DNA of 64,000 nucleotides from Hymenobacter duratus (lineage in GTDB: Bacteria > Bacteroidota > Bacteroidia > Cytophagales > Hymenobacteraceae). The notes below the pieces were generated by a model. The model was not told the DNA's origin, made no database searches, and was given only the letters and a program-made list of their open reading frames with translations. Shown one piece after another: positions 26,133 to 33,376 of the stretch. The translations under genes were made by a program, and so were the position numbers. The stretch covers positions 1,818,501 to 1,882,500 of the forward strand of contig NZ_JACWZZ010000001.1 of NCBI RefSeq assembly GCF_014698995.1, written 5' to 3'. Every line of letters begins with the position of its first letter. Positions within the stretch are counted from its first letter, which is position 1.

Positions 26133-27023
26133 TTAGAAGTTGTAGGCCACCCCGCCCGACAGACCTGTGGATTTGCCCAGGTTGCGGCCTGCTACATACG
26201 TAGTGGCGCCCACCGTCAGGCCAAACCCCTTGGCCAGCGGCCGGAACGCGCTGACGCCCAGACGCACATAGTCGACGCGGGTGGCGGGAAAGAAACCGGT
26301 GAAGCCGGGCTGCAGAATGTCGGTGCCGCTTTTGTCTGACTTCTGGAAGGAGGCCAGCGCATCAACGTAGAGCCGGGGGCCGGCATAGCCGATTTTGGTT
26401 TCGGCCACAAAGGCATTGGGGGCGCTGTTGTCGCGGAGGCTGTAGCCGGCCTGGCCGGTTAGAAACACGCCGGACAGCGTTTTCAGGTGCACGACTCCCT
26501 GGCCGGAGAGCTTGCTGGAGCCGTTGCCGATAGCAATAATGTAGCCTAGGCCCGTGTTCGATTTGTAGTCGCTGATGGGGGTGCTACCGCTCACTACGCC
26601 CAGCACGTCCAGCACGTTGGTCCCGATTTCCTTGGAGAAGATTTTCGCTTTCAGCAGCAGGGTAATGTCCTGCAGGCCAGCACGTTTATTCACGTAGTTC
26701 TGGTCGCGCAACACCTGCTCGTCGGCGAAACCCCGCGACTGAATATAGGGCAGGCTGACAACGGCTTCCAGCCTGTCGGTGAGGCCGTAGCTGCCATACA
26801 GGTTAAGAGAAGTAACTTCTACCCGGTCGAAAATAGGAACCCGGTCAATTTTTTCCGGAGCCAGATACACGCTTTGGTAGCGTTCTGCGGTACCGGACAC
26901 TACAAAGGAGCCGTGGCCTTTGCCCGGCAGAAAGCCGCTTACCAGACTTTGGGCGCGGCCAATTTGGGACCCAGCCAGGCTTAGCAATGAGAAGGCAAGG
27001 AGAAAACGGTAGGTGTGTTGCAT
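26133..27023 (-). CDS. Outer-membrane beta-barrel protein, function unknown
   Basis: From the ATG at 27023 the 296-residue product has a signal peptide (LLAFSLLSLAGSQIGRAQS) and then alternating amphipathic strands throughout. It includes LNLYGSYGLTDRLEAVVSLPY and a final aromatic beta-signal, GGVAYNF. This fits a roughly 12-strand barrel related to transporter-like or DUF3187-type outer-membrane proteins. No catalytic motif. The divergent neighbour is a fasciclin lipoprotein; the shared 230-nt region holds a 9-bp palindrome. Confidence 0.8.
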   Translation of the reverse strand: MQHTYRFLLAFSLLSLAGSQIGRAQSLVSGFLPGKGHGSFVVSGTAERYQSVYLAPEKIDRVPIFDRVEVTSLNLYGSYGLTDRLEAVVSLPYIQSRGFADEQVLRDQNYVNKRAGLQDITLLLKAKIFSKEIGTNVLDVLGVVSGSTPISDYKSNTGLGYIIAIGNGSSKLSGQGVVHLKTLSGVFLTGQAGYSLRDNSAPNAFVAETKIGYAGPRLYVDALASFQKSDKSGTDILQPGFTGFFPATRVDYVRLGVSAFRPLAKGFGLTVGATTYVAGRNLGKSTGLSGGVAYNF

Positions 27024-27151
27024 AAAGGAGCAGTGGTAGAGGGAACAGGTAGACAGGCTCATCGGGAAATTGTTCAAGAAACAATCCAGGCGCGCCGGTG
27101 TTCGGATATGGGAATCCGTCTGGGCGCTAACTACGAACTACTCAGTCGCAT

Positions 27152-27252: not shown

Positions 27253-28236
27253 ATGAAAAAATCCTTACCCGGCTGGCTTTGCGGCCTTGCGTTGAGCACC
27301 CTTTTTTTGGTGGGCTGCCAGAAAAACGAAGAACTTGATCCGACCATTGCCGGCATTGCCGTCGCGAATCCGGATTTCCAGATTTTGGAAGATGCGGCTA
27401 TCCGGGGAGAGGTGGTGGACATTCTGTCCAATAAAAATCCTAACGACCCCGAAGGCAACTACACGGTATTCGCCCCAACTAACACGGCATTCGGCCGGTT
27501 GGGCCTCAACTCAGCCGCCGACCTGCTAACCCTGCAGAAGCCCTTCCTGACCAGCACCCTGTTCTACCACGTCACGGGCGGCACACTGTCGGGGAATAAC
27601 CTGCAGGCGGGGCTGGCGTCGCCTTCCGCTCTGGGCCCGAACCGCCGGATCATCAGCCGCAATGGCAGCACCTATGTAAACGGCTCGAAGATTCTGGCTA
27701 CCGACGTAAAAGCATCCAATGGCACGGTGCACGTGATAGATAAAGTGCTGCTGGCCACCGGCGCCGATATTGTGCAGTCGGCGGTAGCGCTGAAGGATGC
27801 GCAGGTATTCACCAAGCCTGAGTTGGGCTTTCTGGTGGAGGCCGTGCTGTATTGCAACCTGGCCGGCGTTCTGACGGCCTCGCCCGGCAGCCCGCAGTTC
27901 ACGGTATTTGCCCCCACCGATCAGGCATTCCGAAACCTGGGTACCGACCTGGGCGTGGTGCTGGATGTGCCGGCCGATATCCGCAAGCTGCCCCAGGCCA
28001 CCGTCACGGCCGTGCTACTGAACCATGTAGTGCCCGGCGGCCAGTTTACCTCGGAGCTGCCCGAGAGTTCCCGCGTCACCACCGCTGGCGGCGGCCAGCT
28101 CACGCTCGGCGCGTTTACGGATGGCATCCTGACCGTGAAAGGAAACAGCAACGCCACGGCAGCCGGCATGGTGATTCCGGATGTGCAGTGCACCAATGGC
28201 GTGGTGCACGTCATCGACCGGGTGTTGCTTCCATAA
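27253..28236 (+). CDS. Fasciclin (FAS1) repeat lipoprotein
   Basis: The ATG at 27253 starts a 327-residue lipoprotein (LFLVGC, Cys22). Two FAS1 domains follow, about residues 40-170 and 185-325. Each has the YTVFAPTNTAF / FTVFAPTDQAF motif and the closing VHVIDKVLL / VHVIDRVLL motif. FAS1 domains mediate adhesion or polymer interaction; bacterial double-FAS1 lipoproteins are surface or periplasmic. No enzymatic function is expected. Divergent from the barrel protein. Confidence 0.94.
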   Translation: MKKSLPGWLCGLALSTLFLVGCQKNEELDPTIAGIAVANPDFQILEDAAIRGEVVDILSNKNPNDPEGNYTVFAPTNTAFGRLGLNSAADLLTLQKPFLTSTLFYHVTGGTLSGNNLQAGLASPSALGPNRRIISRNGSTYVNGSKILATDVKASNGTVHVIDKVLLATGADIVQSAVALKDAQVFTKPELGFLVEAVLYCNLAGVLTASPGSPQFTVFAPTDQAFRNLGTDLGVVLDVPADIRKLPQATVTAVLLNHVVPGGQFTSELPESSRVTTAGGGQLTLGAFTDGILTVKGNSNATAAGMVIPDVQCTNGVVHVIDRVLLP

Positions 28237-28400
28237 GCGAATAGCTTGAGCGAGTAGAACAGGGAGTTTGGCGGCCGTTTCCGGCTGCCCGGCCAATTGT
28301 TCGGTGGCGCTGCCCGGTAGCGGGCGTACTTGCCGCCTGATTCCCGCCGTTGCTGCCTGCTCAGCTGGGCTGCCGCGCACTCTGTCCATCTGCTTTCACT

Positions 28401-29960
28401 ATGAATAAGTTAAACTCTGCCTTCGTCTGGAGAGGCTTGTTGGGGCTGTTGCTGCTGCTCAGCGGCGCGGCAGCCCGTGCCCAGGCGCCGGCTGGTGGCC
28501 GCTACTCGCTGGAAGGCCAGTGGAGAGGTGCCCTGACAGTGCCCGGCGGCAGCCTGCCGCTCATGATTACGATAACGGAGCTGGCCGACGGCAACCGTTT
28601 CGCGGTGCTGGATGTGCCCATGCAGCGTGTAAACCGGGAACCCATGACCGTGACGCCCCGTGGCGATACGCTCATTTTCGAGGCGGAGCAGGCTGGCTGC
28701 CGCTTTGTGGGCCGCCGCACTCCCGATGGGCAGCAGCTGCTGGGTATCTGGCAGCAACCCGGCTACGCTACGCCGCTCACGCTGCTGTTTGTGCCACCTG
28801 CCGCGGCAGCCGCCCCCAAGGCCTTTAAGTTTCCGCCGCCCTACCGCGTCGAGGAAGTGACGGTGCCCAGCGTTACGGACCACCTGCGGCTGGCCGGCAC
28901 GCTCACGGTACCAGCCGGCGAAGGGCCTTTCCCGGCCGTCGTGCTGCTTTCTGACCAGGATGCCCAGACGCGGGATGCTCTCTACGGCGACTTTGCCCTA
29001 TTCGGCAATCTGGCCGACTACCTCACCCGCCGGGGCGTGGCGGTGCTGCGGCTCGATGACCGGGGAACGGGCAAATCCGGCGGCGACTCGACGAAGGCGA
29101 CCACCGAAGACCGGGTGCGGGATGCCCAGGCGGCGCTGGCGTTTCTTCGCTCCCGGCCGCTGCTCGATATTGCCCACATCGGCCTGATCGGGCACGGGGA
29201 GGGCGGTAATGTGGCGCTGCTGGCTGCCGCGCAGCCGCTGCCGCCCAGCTTTGTGGTGACGCTGGCCGCCGCCGGCCTGCCCGGCAACGAGCTGCTGACC
29301 CAGCAGCGCCCCTCGCTGCTGCTGCGTGCCGGCACACCCGATACGGCGCTGCTGAGTCTGGCGCGGCGGCAGGAGCAGGCCCTCGCGGAAGCACAGCAGA
29401 AAGCCGAAAAGCTGCGGGCTTCAGGCTCCAATGCTGCCCAGGTAGCTACCTATCTGGAGCAGCAGCGCATGCGGCAGCGGGTAGAAGAAAAAAAGCGCCT
29501 CGATGCCCAGCGCAAGCGCCGCCGTGCCATGCTTGATATCATTGCCAATACCGCCGACAACGCCCAGGCGCAGGCCATTGTGGCCAACATGGTGCGGCAG
29601 GATGCCCCGGCGCTGCCGCCGGAGGCCGTACTGACGGCCACCGCCCGCCTCACCTCGCCCTGGTACCGTTACTACCTTCGGTTTGATCCGCGCGATGAAC
29701 TGGACAAAACCAAAACCGCCATACTGCTGCTGCACGGTACCGCCGACGATATGGTGGAAGGCCAGACCAACATGGACATCCTCGTGAAGGCCCTGAAAGG
29801 CAATTCGCGCGTGACGGCCCAGAAGATTGAAGGTGCCAACCACCTGTTCCAGGCTCCCACCACCGAGTGGCCCCTCCTGAACGGCCAGCCCCGCCCCATC
29901 ATTTCGCCCGCTGCTCTGGAGGCCATGCACTCCTGGATAATGGCCCATGTGAAGGAGTAG
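28401..29960 (+). CDS. Secreted alpha/beta hydrolase-fold protein lacking the nucleophile Ser
   Basis: The ATG at 28401 gives a 519-residue protein with a signal peptide (LLGLLLLLSGAAARAQ). Residues 30-135 form a beta-rich N-terminal domain; an alpha/beta hydrolase fold follows. In relatives the nucleophile elbow is GHSEGG; here it is GHGEGG, Gly266 (codon GGG at 29196-29198). The usual oxyanion loop (GSGPQ type) is replaced by LLSDQDAQTRD. The catalytic Asp (LLHGTADD) and His (GANHLFQ) remain. A highly charged helical insertion occupies about 345-385 (EAQQKAEKLR to RKRRRAM). It is therefore probably a pseudoenzyme or a binding protein, unless another residue acts. A 37-bp palindrome ends the gene. 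Confidence 0.88.
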   Translation: MNKLNSAFVWRGLLGLLLLLSGAAARAQAPAGGRYSLEGQWRGALTVPGGSLPLMITITELADGNRFAVLDVPMQRVNREPMTVTPRGDTLIFEAEQAGCRFVGRRTPDGQQLLGIWQQPGYATPLTLLFVPPAAAAAPKAFKFPPPYRVEEVTVPSVTDHLRLAGTLTVPAGEGPFPAVVLLSDQDAQTRDALYGDFALFGNLADYLTRRGVAVLRLDDRGTGKSGGDSTKATTEDRVRDAQAALAFLRSRPLLDIAHIGLIGHGEGGNVALLAAAQPLPPSFVVTLAAAGLPGNELLTQQRPSLLLRAGTPDTALLSLARRQEQALAEAQQKAEKLRASGSNAAQVATYLEQQRMRQRVEEKKRLDAQRKRRRAMLDIIANTADNAQAQAIVANMVRQDAPALPPEAVLTATARLTSPWYRYYLRFDPRDELDKTKTAILLLHGTADDMVEGQTNMDILVKALKGNSRVTAQKIEGANHLFQAPTTEWPLLNGQPRPIISPAALEAMHSWIMAHVKE

Positions 29961-29980: not shown

Positions 29981-30055
29981 TAGCCAGAAACTCCTAACAG
30001 GCAACGGCCATCTACCCAGGGTAGATGGCCGTTGCCTGTTAGGAGTTTCTGGCTA
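29981..30055. terminator. Perfect 37-bp inverted repeat, bidirectional terminator
   Basis: Every base of the left arm (29981-30017) pairs with the right arm (30019-30055), with a single A at the centre. It includes the stop codon of the lipase-like gene on the minus strand. The length far exceeds an ordinary terminator. Confidence 0.9.
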
Positions 30056-31177
30056 AATATGGTCGCGCAGGTACTGGTATACTTCTGGGTTGGAAAGGAG
30101 TGTGCCATGATGCAGCTTCGGAAACACGCGGGTGCTGATGAGTTGCTCCGGCGGCAGGCCCGGGTCGCCGAAGACGCGGCCCAGGGCGCTGCCCGCACCC
30201 ACCAGCCCGTCGCCGAAGTAGTCGTGCAGGGCGGAATTGGCGGTTTTCAGCAACGAGCCCACCAGCACGTGGTAGCTCACCCCAGGTAGCGGTGGCACCA
30301 GCGTGCGGGGCGGAAACAGGTCGTCGGCGTGCGGGTCCTGCCAGTCCTCATCCACCAGAATGGCGTGGCGCAGGTCTTTGATGCCGTTGCTGCGCTTGTC
30401 GATCAGGCCACTGATGAAGCGGGTGGGCCGCAGATTGATTTTGCGCAGGACCACGGACGTGAAATGGCTGTTTTGTTCCAGAAACGACCCATCGTTGGGG
30501 ACGCCCAGCAGAAACACATCCTGGAGATGCGTCAGCCAGTGCGCTGGAACTGCTTGTTCCGGCTTACTTGCTGAGGCCACGGACCCCTGCTGTGTCTCCA
30601 GAGAAGCATAGTAGCCCGCGCTTCGGATAACGAGGCCGCCCATACTGTGGCCCACCAGGGTCAGCGGCCCAACTGCATCGGGATAGGTGCTAAGGAGTTC
30701 CGTGAGCAGATTGCTGAGCAGCTGGCCGTTCTGGGAGATGTGCAGGCCGCTGTTGTAGCGCACGTAGAGGCAGATGGCGCCGGTGTCCTGCTGCAGCCGG
30801 GGGCCGTAGCGCAACCCGTCCGGCGAGCCGGCCTGCCAGATTACCTCGTCGCCCATCAGGCCGTGCAGAAACACCACTACTTTGCGAGGGCCGGTGGCGG
30901 CAGGTTCCAGGCGGAGCGCTGCCACTGGCACATCGGTGCTGTGGCGGCGGAAACTCATCTGGATGGCGCGTCGGTCCTGCCGCTCGGCCAGCTGGTCGCC
31001 GAAAGCGCCGTTGAGAACCGGTAGCGTGAAGTGCCGGTTTTCCTGCCCCGTCCGATAGAGGTAGCCGGCCGTGTTGAACGGCAGTAGCGCCGCGCGGCCC
31101 ATGGCCTGGGTGGCACGCCGCCAGCGCGAAGGCTGTTTTTCGGGTTGTGAATCGGGAGAAGGCAGGTCTTCGGTCAC
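30053..31177 (-). CDS. Alpha/beta hydrolase, PGAP1/lipase-like
   Basis: A 374-residue protein starting with GTG at 31177, which overlaps the stop of the preceding T9SS gene by four bases. The core is VVFLHGLMGDEVIW (oxyanion region), LTLVGHSMGGLVIRSAG (nucleophile Ser, intact) and late His/Asp positions near SYHVLVG and FPKLHHGTLL. This is the GHSxGG lipase layout seen in PGAP1-like and triacylglycerol lipases. No signal peptide is evident, so it is probably cytoplasmic or peripheral. Coupling to a secreted surface protein is unusual. The substrate is likely an ester or lipid. Confidence 0.88.
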   Translation of the reverse strand: MTEDLPSPDSQPEKQPSRWRRATQAMGRAALLPFNTAGYLYRTGQENRHFTLPVLNGAFGDQLAERQDRRAIQMSFRRHSTDVPVAALRLEPAATGPRKVVVFLHGLMGDEVIWQAGSPDGLRYGPRLQQDTGAICLYVRYNSGLHISQNGQLLSNLLTELLSTYPDAVGPLTLVGHSMGGLVIRSAGYYASLETQQGSVASASKPEQAVPAHWLTHLQDVFLLGVPNDGSFLEQNSHFTSVVLRKINLRPTRFISGLIDKRSNGIKDLRHAILVDEDWQDPHADDLFPPRTLVPPLPGVSYHVLVGSLLKTANSALHDYFGDGLVGAGSALGRVFGDPGLPPEQLISTRVFPKLHHGTLLSNPEVYQYLRDHI

Positions 31178-32085
31178 GGAATGAGGAGTTTGCGCGTCAG
31201 CAGGCCATCGGGCGTGCTGAGGTGCAACAGATACACGCCGGCCCGCAGCCCACGTAAATCTACGGTCCGGCCGCTTGCCGCGTTGAGCGGGGCCGCTTGC
31301 TGCTGGAACACAAGCCGGCCCATGCTGTCATAAACCCGGCAGGGAGCCGTAGCGAGCATCGGGTGCGACAAAGAAGCCAGAAAAAATTCGCCGCTACTGC
31401 TGGGGTTTGGGTAAACGCTGAGCGCCGCGGCTACTGCCGCCGGTGCTACTGCGGCCACGCTGCCGGTCAGGGCTACCTCATCTATCCACAGCGCCGAGCT
31501 GGCCGCCACACCTCCCGTGCCACAGAGGAAGAACAGCCGGAGCGAGTCCGGGGCCTGACCGAGGGCATAGGAAATCGGGACGGAAATCTGGCCGTAGGCG
31601 GCGCGGGCGGGCAAAATAGTGGCGCCGGCTCCGATTATCTGCGCGGCCTGGCCGCCACCGCGGGTCAGGGCCACGTACACGCCCGCTGAGTCGTTGGCGG
31701 CCAGTGTGAGCTTGTACCAGAACTGCAGCGTGGCCGGCCGGCTCGTGTACGGAATGCCGCCAACGCCAAACGTGCTGGACGTAAGAAAGCGCGAACCCAG
31801 GATCAGAAATGCCGGGAAAGGCAATCCAAACAGGGTTTTGCTTTCCATTTTGGCCGCGAAGCTGCCCGCATAGCTCTCCGTGCTTTTCGTGACGGTTCCC
31901 AGCGAAATCGGAATGCCCTGGCCACCATAAATGGCATCGGTGGTGAGCCAGCTGGCCGGGTACTCGGTGCCCGCCTGCGTGGTCCAGGTTTCGAAGCCGG
32001 CATTGGGCACACTTTGGGCCACGGCAGGACGGACCATCCATCCACCGAAACACAGTACTACAGCGAGAAGTAGCAGGTTTTTCAT
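31174..32085 (-). CDS. T9SS-sorted surface protein, jelly-roll type
   Basis: A 303-residue secreted protein (signal LLLAVVLCFGGWMVRPAVAQS). Residues 25-215 are beta-rich, with PNAGFETWTTQ and LQFWYKLTLAANDSAGVYVAL, resembling carbohydrate-binding jelly rolls of the PCMD/DUF4493-like group. The last 75 residues are a type A T9SS tail (YPNPSSSGEFFLASL, VYDSMGRLVFQQ, VYLLHLSTPDGLLTRKLLIP). It is exported across the outer membrane by T9SS. A paralogue lies directly upstream. Its stop overlaps the lipase start, so the two are cotranscribed. Confidence 0.88.
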   Translation of the reverse strand: MKNLLLLAVVLCFGGWMVRPAVAQSVPNAGFETWTTQAGTEYPASWLTTDAIYGGQGIPISLGTVTKSTESYAGSFAAKMESKTLFGLPFPAFLILGSRFLTSSTFGVGGIPYTSRPATLQFWYKLTLAANDSAGVYVALTRGGGQAAQIIGAGATILPARAAYGQISVPISYALGQAPDSLRLFFLCGTGGVAASSALWIDEVALTGSVAAVAPAAVAAALSVYPNPSSSGEFFLASLSHPMLATAPCRVYDSMGRLVFQQQAAPLNAASGRTVDLRGLRAGVYLLHLSTPDGLLTRKLLIP

Positions 32086-32284: not shown

Positions 32285-33250
32285 TTACTGCGTCATCAGT
32301 TTCTGCACCGCAAAGCCGTCAGGCGTATCCAGGCGCAGCGTATAGAGGCCGGCGGGCTGGGCCTGAAGGTCCAGCGTACGCGGGCCGGAAGTGCGGGCCG
32401 CCGGCTGCTGCAGAACTACGCGGCCCAGGGCGTCCAGTACGGTTAGTGAGGCCGTGGCCAGCACATTATCGTGGCCCACGGCGGCCAGCGTAAACAGTCC
32501 TGACGCGCTGGGATTGGGGTAGGCCTGAAGCGAAGCCGTAAGCTGGGTGTTGCGGGTGGCGGCCACGGTGCCACTCATCACCACGTCATCCACTACCAGC
32601 ACCGTCCCGACTGTAGGGGCCACCGAAAATCCGGAGGCGAAAGCAATATGAATAGAGTCGGGGGCCAGGGAAGACGCATATTGCAGCGGAATAGTACCCA
32701 AGCTGTAGCTGGCCTCCGGCAGCAGGCGCAGGCTGCCGGAGGCAATGGTCTGCACGTTGCCGCCCACCGTGCGGGTCAGCGAAACCAGCGCATACGCCGA
32801 ATCGGCCAGGGCATTGGCACCCGTGAGCTTGTAGTAAAACTGCATGCTGGCCGCACGCGTGGTGAAGGGCAGGCCGCCTACCGCGCTTACGTCGCGGCTG
32901 CCCGCAATGTCAATGGCCGTTGCATCGACGCTGCCCAGCACAATACCGCCGGGAACCGGCCCGATCAACGAGCCCAGAAACGGGTCGAGCTTGGTTTCCA
33001 TGCGCGCCGCAAAAGCCCCCGTGCGGCTACCCGCATCCTTGGCCGTCGTGACGCTGGTGTAGAGGCCGCCAAAGACGGGCACCGTTTTGATAGCCTCATC
33101 GATGGTGCTCCAGCTCTGCGGAACTTCCAGCGTGCTGCGCGTAATCCAGGTATCGAGCGTGCCATTGGGCACGGTGGTAGTCTGGGCAGAAACGGTGGTT
33201 GCCGTGAGCAGGCTCAAGGCGGCAGCCAGGTTGCGTAGGCTTGTTTTCAT
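32285..33250 (-). CDS. T9SS-sorted surface protein, jelly-roll type (paralogue)
   Basis: The ATG at 33250 starts a 321-residue paralogue of the protein at 31174. It has the same plan: signal peptide, PNGTLDTWITR near the mature N-terminus, FYYKLTGANALADSAYALVSL in the jelly roll, then YPNPSASGLFTLAAV and VYTLRLDTPDGFAVQKLMTQ-like T9SS tail. It has its own terminator downstream. Recent duplication followed by divergence in the body suggests different ligands. Ligand unknown. Confidence 0.88.
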   Translation of the reverse strand: MKTSLRNLAAALSLLTATTVSAQTTTVPNGTLDTWITRSTLEVPQSWSTIDEAIKTVPVFGGLYTSVTTAKDAGSRTGAFAARMETKLDPFLGSLIGPVPGGIVLGSVDATAIDIAGSRDVSAVGGLPFTTRAASMQFYYKLTGANALADSAYALVSLTRTVGGNVQTIASGSLRLLPEASYSLGTIPLQYASSLAPDSIHIAFASGFSVAPTVGTVLVVDDVVMSGTVAATRNTQLTASLQAYPNPSASGLFTLAAVGHDNVLATASLTVLDALGRVVLQQPAARTSGPRTLDLQAQPAGLYTLRLDTPDGFAVQKLMTQ

Positions 33251-33376
33251 TAGAATAAAGAAGAAGTGAAAGACAATGCGTTGTGTTTCCAAGGATGCAG
33301 CTGGCTGGCAGCTGGTTGCTTTCCGGGATGCAAAATACTTGATTATTCTATGTTGAATATGGATGTAAACGAGTGG

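Follow-up and report, generated by a model that had tools for sequence, protein, structure and literature searches.

A Hymenobacteraceae family of alpha/beta-hydrolase-fold proteins with glycine in place of the nucleophile serine and an acidic residue in the oxyanion loop

Members of the alpha/beta-hydrolase fold that lack a nucleophile are already known. The hydroxynitrile lyases HbHNL and AtHNL are thought to be descended from serine hydrolases; according to the passages of the source available to us, an oxyanion-loop residue is replaced in them and His serves as the general base (PMC3444685). The loop residue, Thr11 in HbHNL and Asn12 in AtHNL, binds the substrate hydroxyl, Thr11 of HbHNL also blocks the oxyanion hole, and the change of Gly12 to Thr in SABP2 is one of two substitutions that give this esterase weak lyase activity; the lyases still need their Ser, the Ser81Ala variant of AtHNL having under 2% activity (same passages of PMC3444685). 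In the HOD-type dioxygenases HOD and AqdC, as far as the accessible text of the source goes, the role of the base falls to a His-Asp dyad, and the enzymes can do without the elbow Ser, with Ala in its place in some natural members (PMC10548524). Plant cyclases and HIDs represent other routes away from esterase chemistry, as outlined in part of a further paper (PMC10873640).

The gene studied here lies in a window of 64,000 nucleotides (the whole stretch of Hymenobacter duratus DNA that was analyzed) and occupies positions 28401..29960 of the forward strand, the stop codon at 29958-29960 included; all of its features given below are on the same strand. It encodes a protein of 519 aa from the ATG at 28401, and the list of open reading frames puts an alternative, earlier start of the frame at the TTG at 28350. 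The product is a member of the alpha/beta-hydrolase fold superfamily, as it matches Pfam Hydrolase_4 above the cut-off (E 1.1e-12; 48.3 bits, cut-off 27) and its structural model aligns with established members at Z 28. The alpha/beta-hydrolase matches in Pfam lie within residues 147-483, Hydrolase_4 being the best of them, and Peptidase_S15 is also above its cut-off, in both cases despite the absent nucleophile. The best NCBIfam match is EstD (NF041096), with 64.9 bits against a curated cut-off of 600; the Ser-bearing paralogue from the same genome scores 100.6 bits with this profile and also fails the cut-off.

The protein is probably secreted: a likely signal peptide (residues 1-28; 28401..28484) has been read by eye, and the model has a low-confidence helix at residues 9-21. 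An all-beta domain with eight strands in the model follows at residues 36-131 (28506..28793). Pfam gives no match to it up to E 0.1, and it is found in 140 of the 144 relatives with Gly at the nucleophile elbow and in 37 of the 40 with Ser (hereafter, Gly-type and Ser-type proteins). Four Gly-type proteins of 365-394 aa (L039, L041, L043, and L044) are devoid of this domain, and two of them, L043 and L044, have Glu at position 185.

The elbow reads G264-H265-G266-E267-G268-G269 (GHGEGG), with Gly266 encoded by GGG at 29196..29198. The oxyanion loop LLSDQDAQTRD (residues 182-192) contains Asp185 (28953..28955), at which all 40 Ser-type relatives have Gly. In the helix after the elbow, Asn270 (29208..29210) is Asn in 142 of the 144 Gly-type proteins, and in 71 of 71 when the motif-seeded rows introduced below are removed, and is variable in the Ser type. 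The triad acid, Asp449 (29745..29747), and the triad base, His481 (29841..29843), are both retained, and each is invariant in 144/144 Gly-type proteins. The initial annotation had described Gly instead of the nucleophile Ser, an oxyanion loop altered along with the elbow, and the preservation of Asp and His, and all of this is borne out.

Structural modeling, which the same annotation had proposed, has yielded an AlphaFold2 model of the window protein with mean pLDDT 89.0 (54-row alignment) and helices at the charged insert discussed below, and a model of a Ser-type protein of Hymenobacter sp. BT190 with mean pLDDT 89.2 (35 rows). The closest solved folds of both models are nearly identical and comprise the lipase TTL, feruloyl esterases, PET46, and the thioesterase DcsB, with Z approximately 27-28. 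Among them, TTL (7q4j), the feruloyl esterases 7z2v and 7wwh, and DcsB (7d78) match the window protein with Z 27-28 and rmsd 2.6-3.1 over 242-252 residues, and differ from it in sequence, being only 18-24% identical, and in that they are titled ester or thioester hydrolases. Plant hydroxynitrile lyases are absent from the best 50 fold-search matches listed, which is no argument against kinship. In a phmmer alignment to 9pid, Asp185 stands opposite the Gly of the CHGFTG loop, with no gap. The residue following the loop Gly is the usual oxyanion-hole donor, and in the plant lyases Thr11 (HbHNL) or Asn12 (AtHNL) directly precedes this donor. We take the position of Asp185 to be that of Gly12 in SABP2, Thr11 in HbHNL, and Asn12 in AtHNL.

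Relatives of the window protein have been matched in at least 81 of the 99 genomes searched. Among the matches listed, the best 30 loci, all of them in the genus and the window's own included, encode proteins 47-100% identical to it; the Gly elbow is present in 30/30, and no internal stops interrupt their frames. The stretches fetched for comparison were chosen from the top of the match list. From 243 matching frames, omitting those that were cut at a locus end, shorter than 320 aa, or identical, we have collected 184 distinct full-length family proteins, with some species overlap between the two genome collections pooled for this set. They include 144 proteins with the Gly elbow and 40 with the Ser elbow, identity to the window protein being 43-79% for the other Gly-type and 25-43% for the Ser-type ones. 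The share of Gly in this set is biased upward, as 73 of the 144 Gly rows stem from a motif-seeded scan, in which one seed contained the Gly motif and Asn270 and the best 80 of 453 relatives were kept. When these rows are set aside, 99 relatives remain, constituting 71 Gly-type and 28 Ser-type proteins.

Among loci in which the elbow has been read, those of the Gly type come from the genus of the window (g1), a single sister genus (g38), and named genomes of Hymenobacter. The best loci from seven genomes of another Hymenobacteraceae genus (g37), with E from 1e-54 to 1e-60, have Ser in 7/7. As a probe for the motif elsewhere in the phylum, the DNA pattern for G-H-G-[EQ]-G-[GA]-N, a strict one that would miss diverged forms, is matched in 4/4 genomes of the genus and in 5/391 others in a sample of 395 genomes, none of them from the sister genus. 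By eye, none of the five outside matches falls in a hydrolase-like frame, and the reversed control pattern was matched four times, so these five look like chance. Three orthologues from the sister genus (L119, L120, and L122) have the elbow GVGTGA, with a further change just ahead of the lost nucleophile, and keep Asp185, Asp449, and His481. In one genome of the same order (G083), a Ser-type relative is split at the elbow motif into frames of 264 and 245 codons (L055 and L064), which may reflect a frameshift or an assembly error.

The initial annotation had viewed the gene as a single oddity, and here it has to be corrected: at least three genes in this genome are Gly copies, namely that of the window, one from C1:540544 onward, and one at C1:619000-620322, and the window gene belongs to a paralogous family of Hymenobacter and one sister genus. 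One Ser copy in the same genome, C1:617421-618788, adjoins the third Gly copy; the window gene itself has no adjoining Ser copy of its own family. Among the loci listed that have two full family members, at least 22 in number (a lower bound, with identical proteins counted once), 11 combine a Ser with a Gly copy and the other 11 have two Gly copies, both members always being on one strand.

The residue at the elbow is tightly coupled with the residue at position 185. The combinations observed in the 184 proteins are Gly/Asp (140), Gly/Glu (2), Gly/Asn (1), Gly/Gly (1), and Ser/Gly (40), that is, Asp or Glu accompanies the Gly elbow in 142/144 cases, and Gly accompanies the Ser elbow in 40/40, with an acid in 0/40. 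Without the motif-seeded rows, the coupling is complete (71/71 and 28/28, respectively). The two Gly-type exceptions are L164 from H. mucosus, with Asn, and L172 from H. psychrotolerans, with Gly, and hence the acid at 185 can be lost.

We have considered a position discriminating if at least 93% of one group share a residue that is present in at most 25% of the other. Positions 185, 266, 270, 273, 274, and 461 discriminate through conservation in the Gly group, and positions 141, 143, 185, 186, 266, 489, and 493 through conservation in the Ser group, making eleven positions in total, of which 185 and 266 are the cleanest. At least five of the eleven fall in the elbow, the helix behind it, or the oxyanion loop, to which 185, 186, 266, 270, 273, and 274 are assigned. 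Without the motif-seeded rows, the lists become 48, 50, 185, 266, 270, 273, 282, and 461 for the Gly group and 185, 186, 266, and 493 for the Ser group. Asp449 and His481 are among the 20 invariant positions out of 324 in the domain in the Gly group; the chance for two given positions to be both invariant is about 0.004, a rough value that treats positions as independent.

For the reconstruction of the family history, the 184 proteins were thinned at 78% identity, with some chosen rows exempt, and nine trait columns were removed. In the resulting tree of 108 proteins, 77 rows make up a single Gly-type clade, supported at SH-aLRT 100, that is nested with Ser-type proteins of Hymenobacteraceae, and the elbow changes once, within that bacterial family. 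The core-column tree of 104 proteins, from which four long-branch Ser rows were dropped, has one elbow change, one cap change, and four changes at residue 185. Both trees were built by a quick method, with SH-aLRT rather than bootstrap support. We have also considered that the Gly elbow arose more than once, and reject this, as both trees need one change. Since the changes at the elbow and at 185 trace to one branch, their coupling reflects inheritance and retention, not repeated co-evolution.

The Gly clade is under purifying selection: dN/dS is 0.18 for the window gene against L002 (dS 0.74), 0.13 for the window gene against L148 (dS 1.08), 0.13 for L119 against L120 (dS 0.20), and 0.04 for L004 against L006 (dS 1.10). 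The values were calculated by the Nei-Gojobori method, and these four pairs are those in which dS does not exceed about 1.1; the remaining pairs are near saturation. Codon 266 in the Gly clade is GGC in 116 cases, GGG in 14, GGT in 8, and GGA in 6.

A sequencing error, a pseudogene, or a recent loss in the window strain can therefore be set aside as extremely improbable. Nothing has been found in favor of an error or a pseudogene, and we reject both, as Gly is present in all 30 best loci of the genus with frames free of stops, is encoded by four different codons, and goes with low dN/dS and with a fasciclin-domain neighbor in 13/13 loci. The initial annotation had argued against one sequencing error and had suggested a comparison with orthologues, in which Ser would have pointed to a recent loss or an error; the comparison upholds its view, Gly being present in all of the 30 best genus loci and Ser in none of them. 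As judged from the comparison of sequences, the Gly elbow is an evolved redesign across a gene family.

The conserved neighbor is the gene directly upstream (27253..28236, forward strand), encoding a protein with a fasciclin domain (Pfam Fasciclin, E 2.1e-45); its presence upstream of the orthologue has been confirmed in all of 13 named loci, which are the closest and the first of the 79 from the motif-seeded scan. A counterpart of the gene at 26133-27077 on the reverse strand, for which neither Pfam nor NCBIfam gives a match at the thresholds applied, stands beside the fasciclin gene in 12 of the 13 loci, and in the thirteenth the contig starts too close. Downstream, a perfect inverted repeat with 37-nt arms and 1 nt between them (29981-30055) separates the gene from a convergent one, and is perhaps a two-way terminator, though long and exact. 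The convergent gene (30053-31177, reverse strand) encodes a hydrolase-fold-like protein of another family, with 22.8 bits to Abhydrolase_6 (below the cut-off of 26.3) and a GHSMGG elbow with Ser. Also on the reverse strand, at higher coordinates, are two adjacent genes, 31174-32085 and 32285-33292, for look-alike predicted secreted proteins, whose ends by eye resemble the tail for type IX secretion.

The initial annotation had also pointed to a charged helical insert near residues 345-385. The insert is real and slightly larger, comprising extended charged cap helices at approximately residues 307-385 (29319..29555), with model helices at 315-340 and 345-383; it is not a part of the Gly change, of which we had considered it a companion. 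The stretch 295-390 has 96 residues in the window protein vs. 46 in 36 of the 40 Ser-type relatives, and in the Gly type the cap is 45-46 residues long in 86 of 144 proteins and 90-96 residues long in 58 (46-47 in 37 of the 40 Ser-type ones). On the core-column tree, the long cap arises once, separately, in a group of 35 rows (support 97) within the Gly type, and was hence added later, in a single Gly subclade. The cap lengths and the tree together reject the companionship, and the insert may have a binding role in its own right. As the trees have a single elbow change and the long cap as a separate change inside the Gly type, the likely order of events is the replacement of Ser by Gly with the loop change, the expansion of paralogues, and then the extension of the cap in the branch of the window gene.

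At the level of sequence, the residues themselves, the paired changes at 185 and 266, the single change at the elbow, and the retention of His and Asp are established; what we infer is that esterase activity is lost, where the side chain of Asp185 lies, and that catalysis takes place. We consider it about an even chance (probability roughly 0.5) that the window protein is a non-esterase enzyme of the alpha/beta-hydrolase fold with non-covalent acid/base catalysis by His481-Asp449, in which Asp185 would be a binding or proton-shuttling group. Serine-esterase chemistry would have been given up in one founding event in a Hymenobacteraceae clade, by replacement of the nucleophile Ser with Gly and of the conserved oxyanion-loop Gly with Asp, in either order. 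With no nucleophile and with a carboxylate near the former site of the ester oxygen, the acyl-enzyme route would be removed. His481, polarized by Asp449, would then deprotonate a substrate OH or CH group or a water molecule, and the substrate would be bound or protonated in the former oxyanion site by Asp185, which Asn270 may keep in place. Such chemistry would resemble that of two groups of enzymes sharing this fold, the hydroxynitrile lyases and the cofactor-free dioxygenases. His481 and Asp449 could also be retained for structure alone, which counts against catalysis, as do the two Gly-type proteins with no acid at 185 and the four changes of this residue on the core-column tree.

The main rival is a pseudoenzyme that holds a ligand or a partner, e.g., an active Ser paralogue or a polysaccharide, and catalyzes nothing, the loss of Ser and the filled oxyanion hole having turned an esterase into a stable binder. 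We regard this as a serious possibility, if a doubtful one. The nucleophile is missing across the whole clade of 144 proteins, half of the two-member loci (11 of at least 22) pair a Gly copy with an adjacent Ser copy in the same orientation, the genome of the window also has a Gly copy next to its Ser copy, and non-enzymatic members of the fold exist, e.g., NDRG3 (PMC7022630) and GID1 (PMC10873640), as described in the available parts of these papers. However, the window gene has no Ser copy of its family next door, and neither His481 nor Asp449 varies among the 144 proteins, which, apart from the window protein, are 43-79% identical to it. In NDRG3, by the same partial source, the whole triad is replaced (PMC7022630).

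The strict association of D/E185 with the Gly elbow (142/144 vs. 0/40) would also fit a hydrolase with a relocated carboxylate, in which Asp185 fills the space of Ser and acts as a nucleophile or a base with His481 and Asp449. This seems unlikely, as two natural members have no acid at 185, and Asp185 in this role would presumably occupy the oxyanion hole and leave little to stabilize charge. Asp is the nucleophile in other alpha/beta-hydrolase-fold enzymes, but at the elbow. A bolder version, with Asp185-His481-Asp449 as a new catalytic center moved to the oxyanion loop, providing chemistry not known in the fold and founding a radiated Hymenobacter enzyme family, is likewise improbable.

Whatever the function, a single loss of the nucleophile stands at the origin of a family that comprises several groups of paralogues, and genomes with the Gly type in some cases still carry the Ser-bearing type, at times adjoining. 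As eleven positions separate the Gly and Ser types, with the active-site pair 185/266 the cleanest, the family is a good natural experiment on the conversion of an esterase into a different kind of protein, and may be a source of new enzyme chemistry. It is also a warning for annotation, since the labels Peptidase_S15 or Hydrolase_4 pass their cut-offs here with the nucleophile missing.

The closest known proteins are the Ser-type paralogues of Hymenobacteraceae, EstD-like two-domain esterases, which share with the window protein the fold, Asp and His, and the N-terminal beta domain (37/40), and differ in the Ser elbow, Gly185, and the shorter cap; their esterase activity is assumed. Among the serine-esterase features, the window protein has the acid and His, and lacks the Ser of G-x-S-x-G and the loop Gly. 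As these two esterase features and the Ser of the lyases are missing, it is filed neither under serine esterases nor under plant lyases. Replacement of the oxyanion-loop Gly is common to the hydroxynitrile lyases and the window protein (Asp185, presumably equivalent to Gly12 of SABP2). Yet HbHNL and AtHNL, as portrayed in the passages available, keep and need Ser and have Thr or Asn in the loop (PMC3444685), in contrast to the Gly elbow and loop Asp here, and the need of AtHNL for Ser weakens the analogy. HOD and AqdC differ in that the substitution found in their kind is Ala rather than Gly and that the oxyanion site takes O2, and a loop Asp is not mentioned in the accessible text (PMC10548524). 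NDRG3 is also a hydrolase fold without a working triad, but the entire triad is substituted there, according to the part of the paper available (PMC7022630), and the nucleophile alone here. Among the papers listed in a literature search over titles, beginnings of abstracts, and passages, mostly outside subscription journals, no Gly/Asp pairing and no Gly-for-Ser family was found. Judging by its sequence, the window protein appears to join both types of change, that of the elbow as in the HOD kind and that of the loop as in the hydroxynitrile lyase kind, in the form of Gly and Asp.
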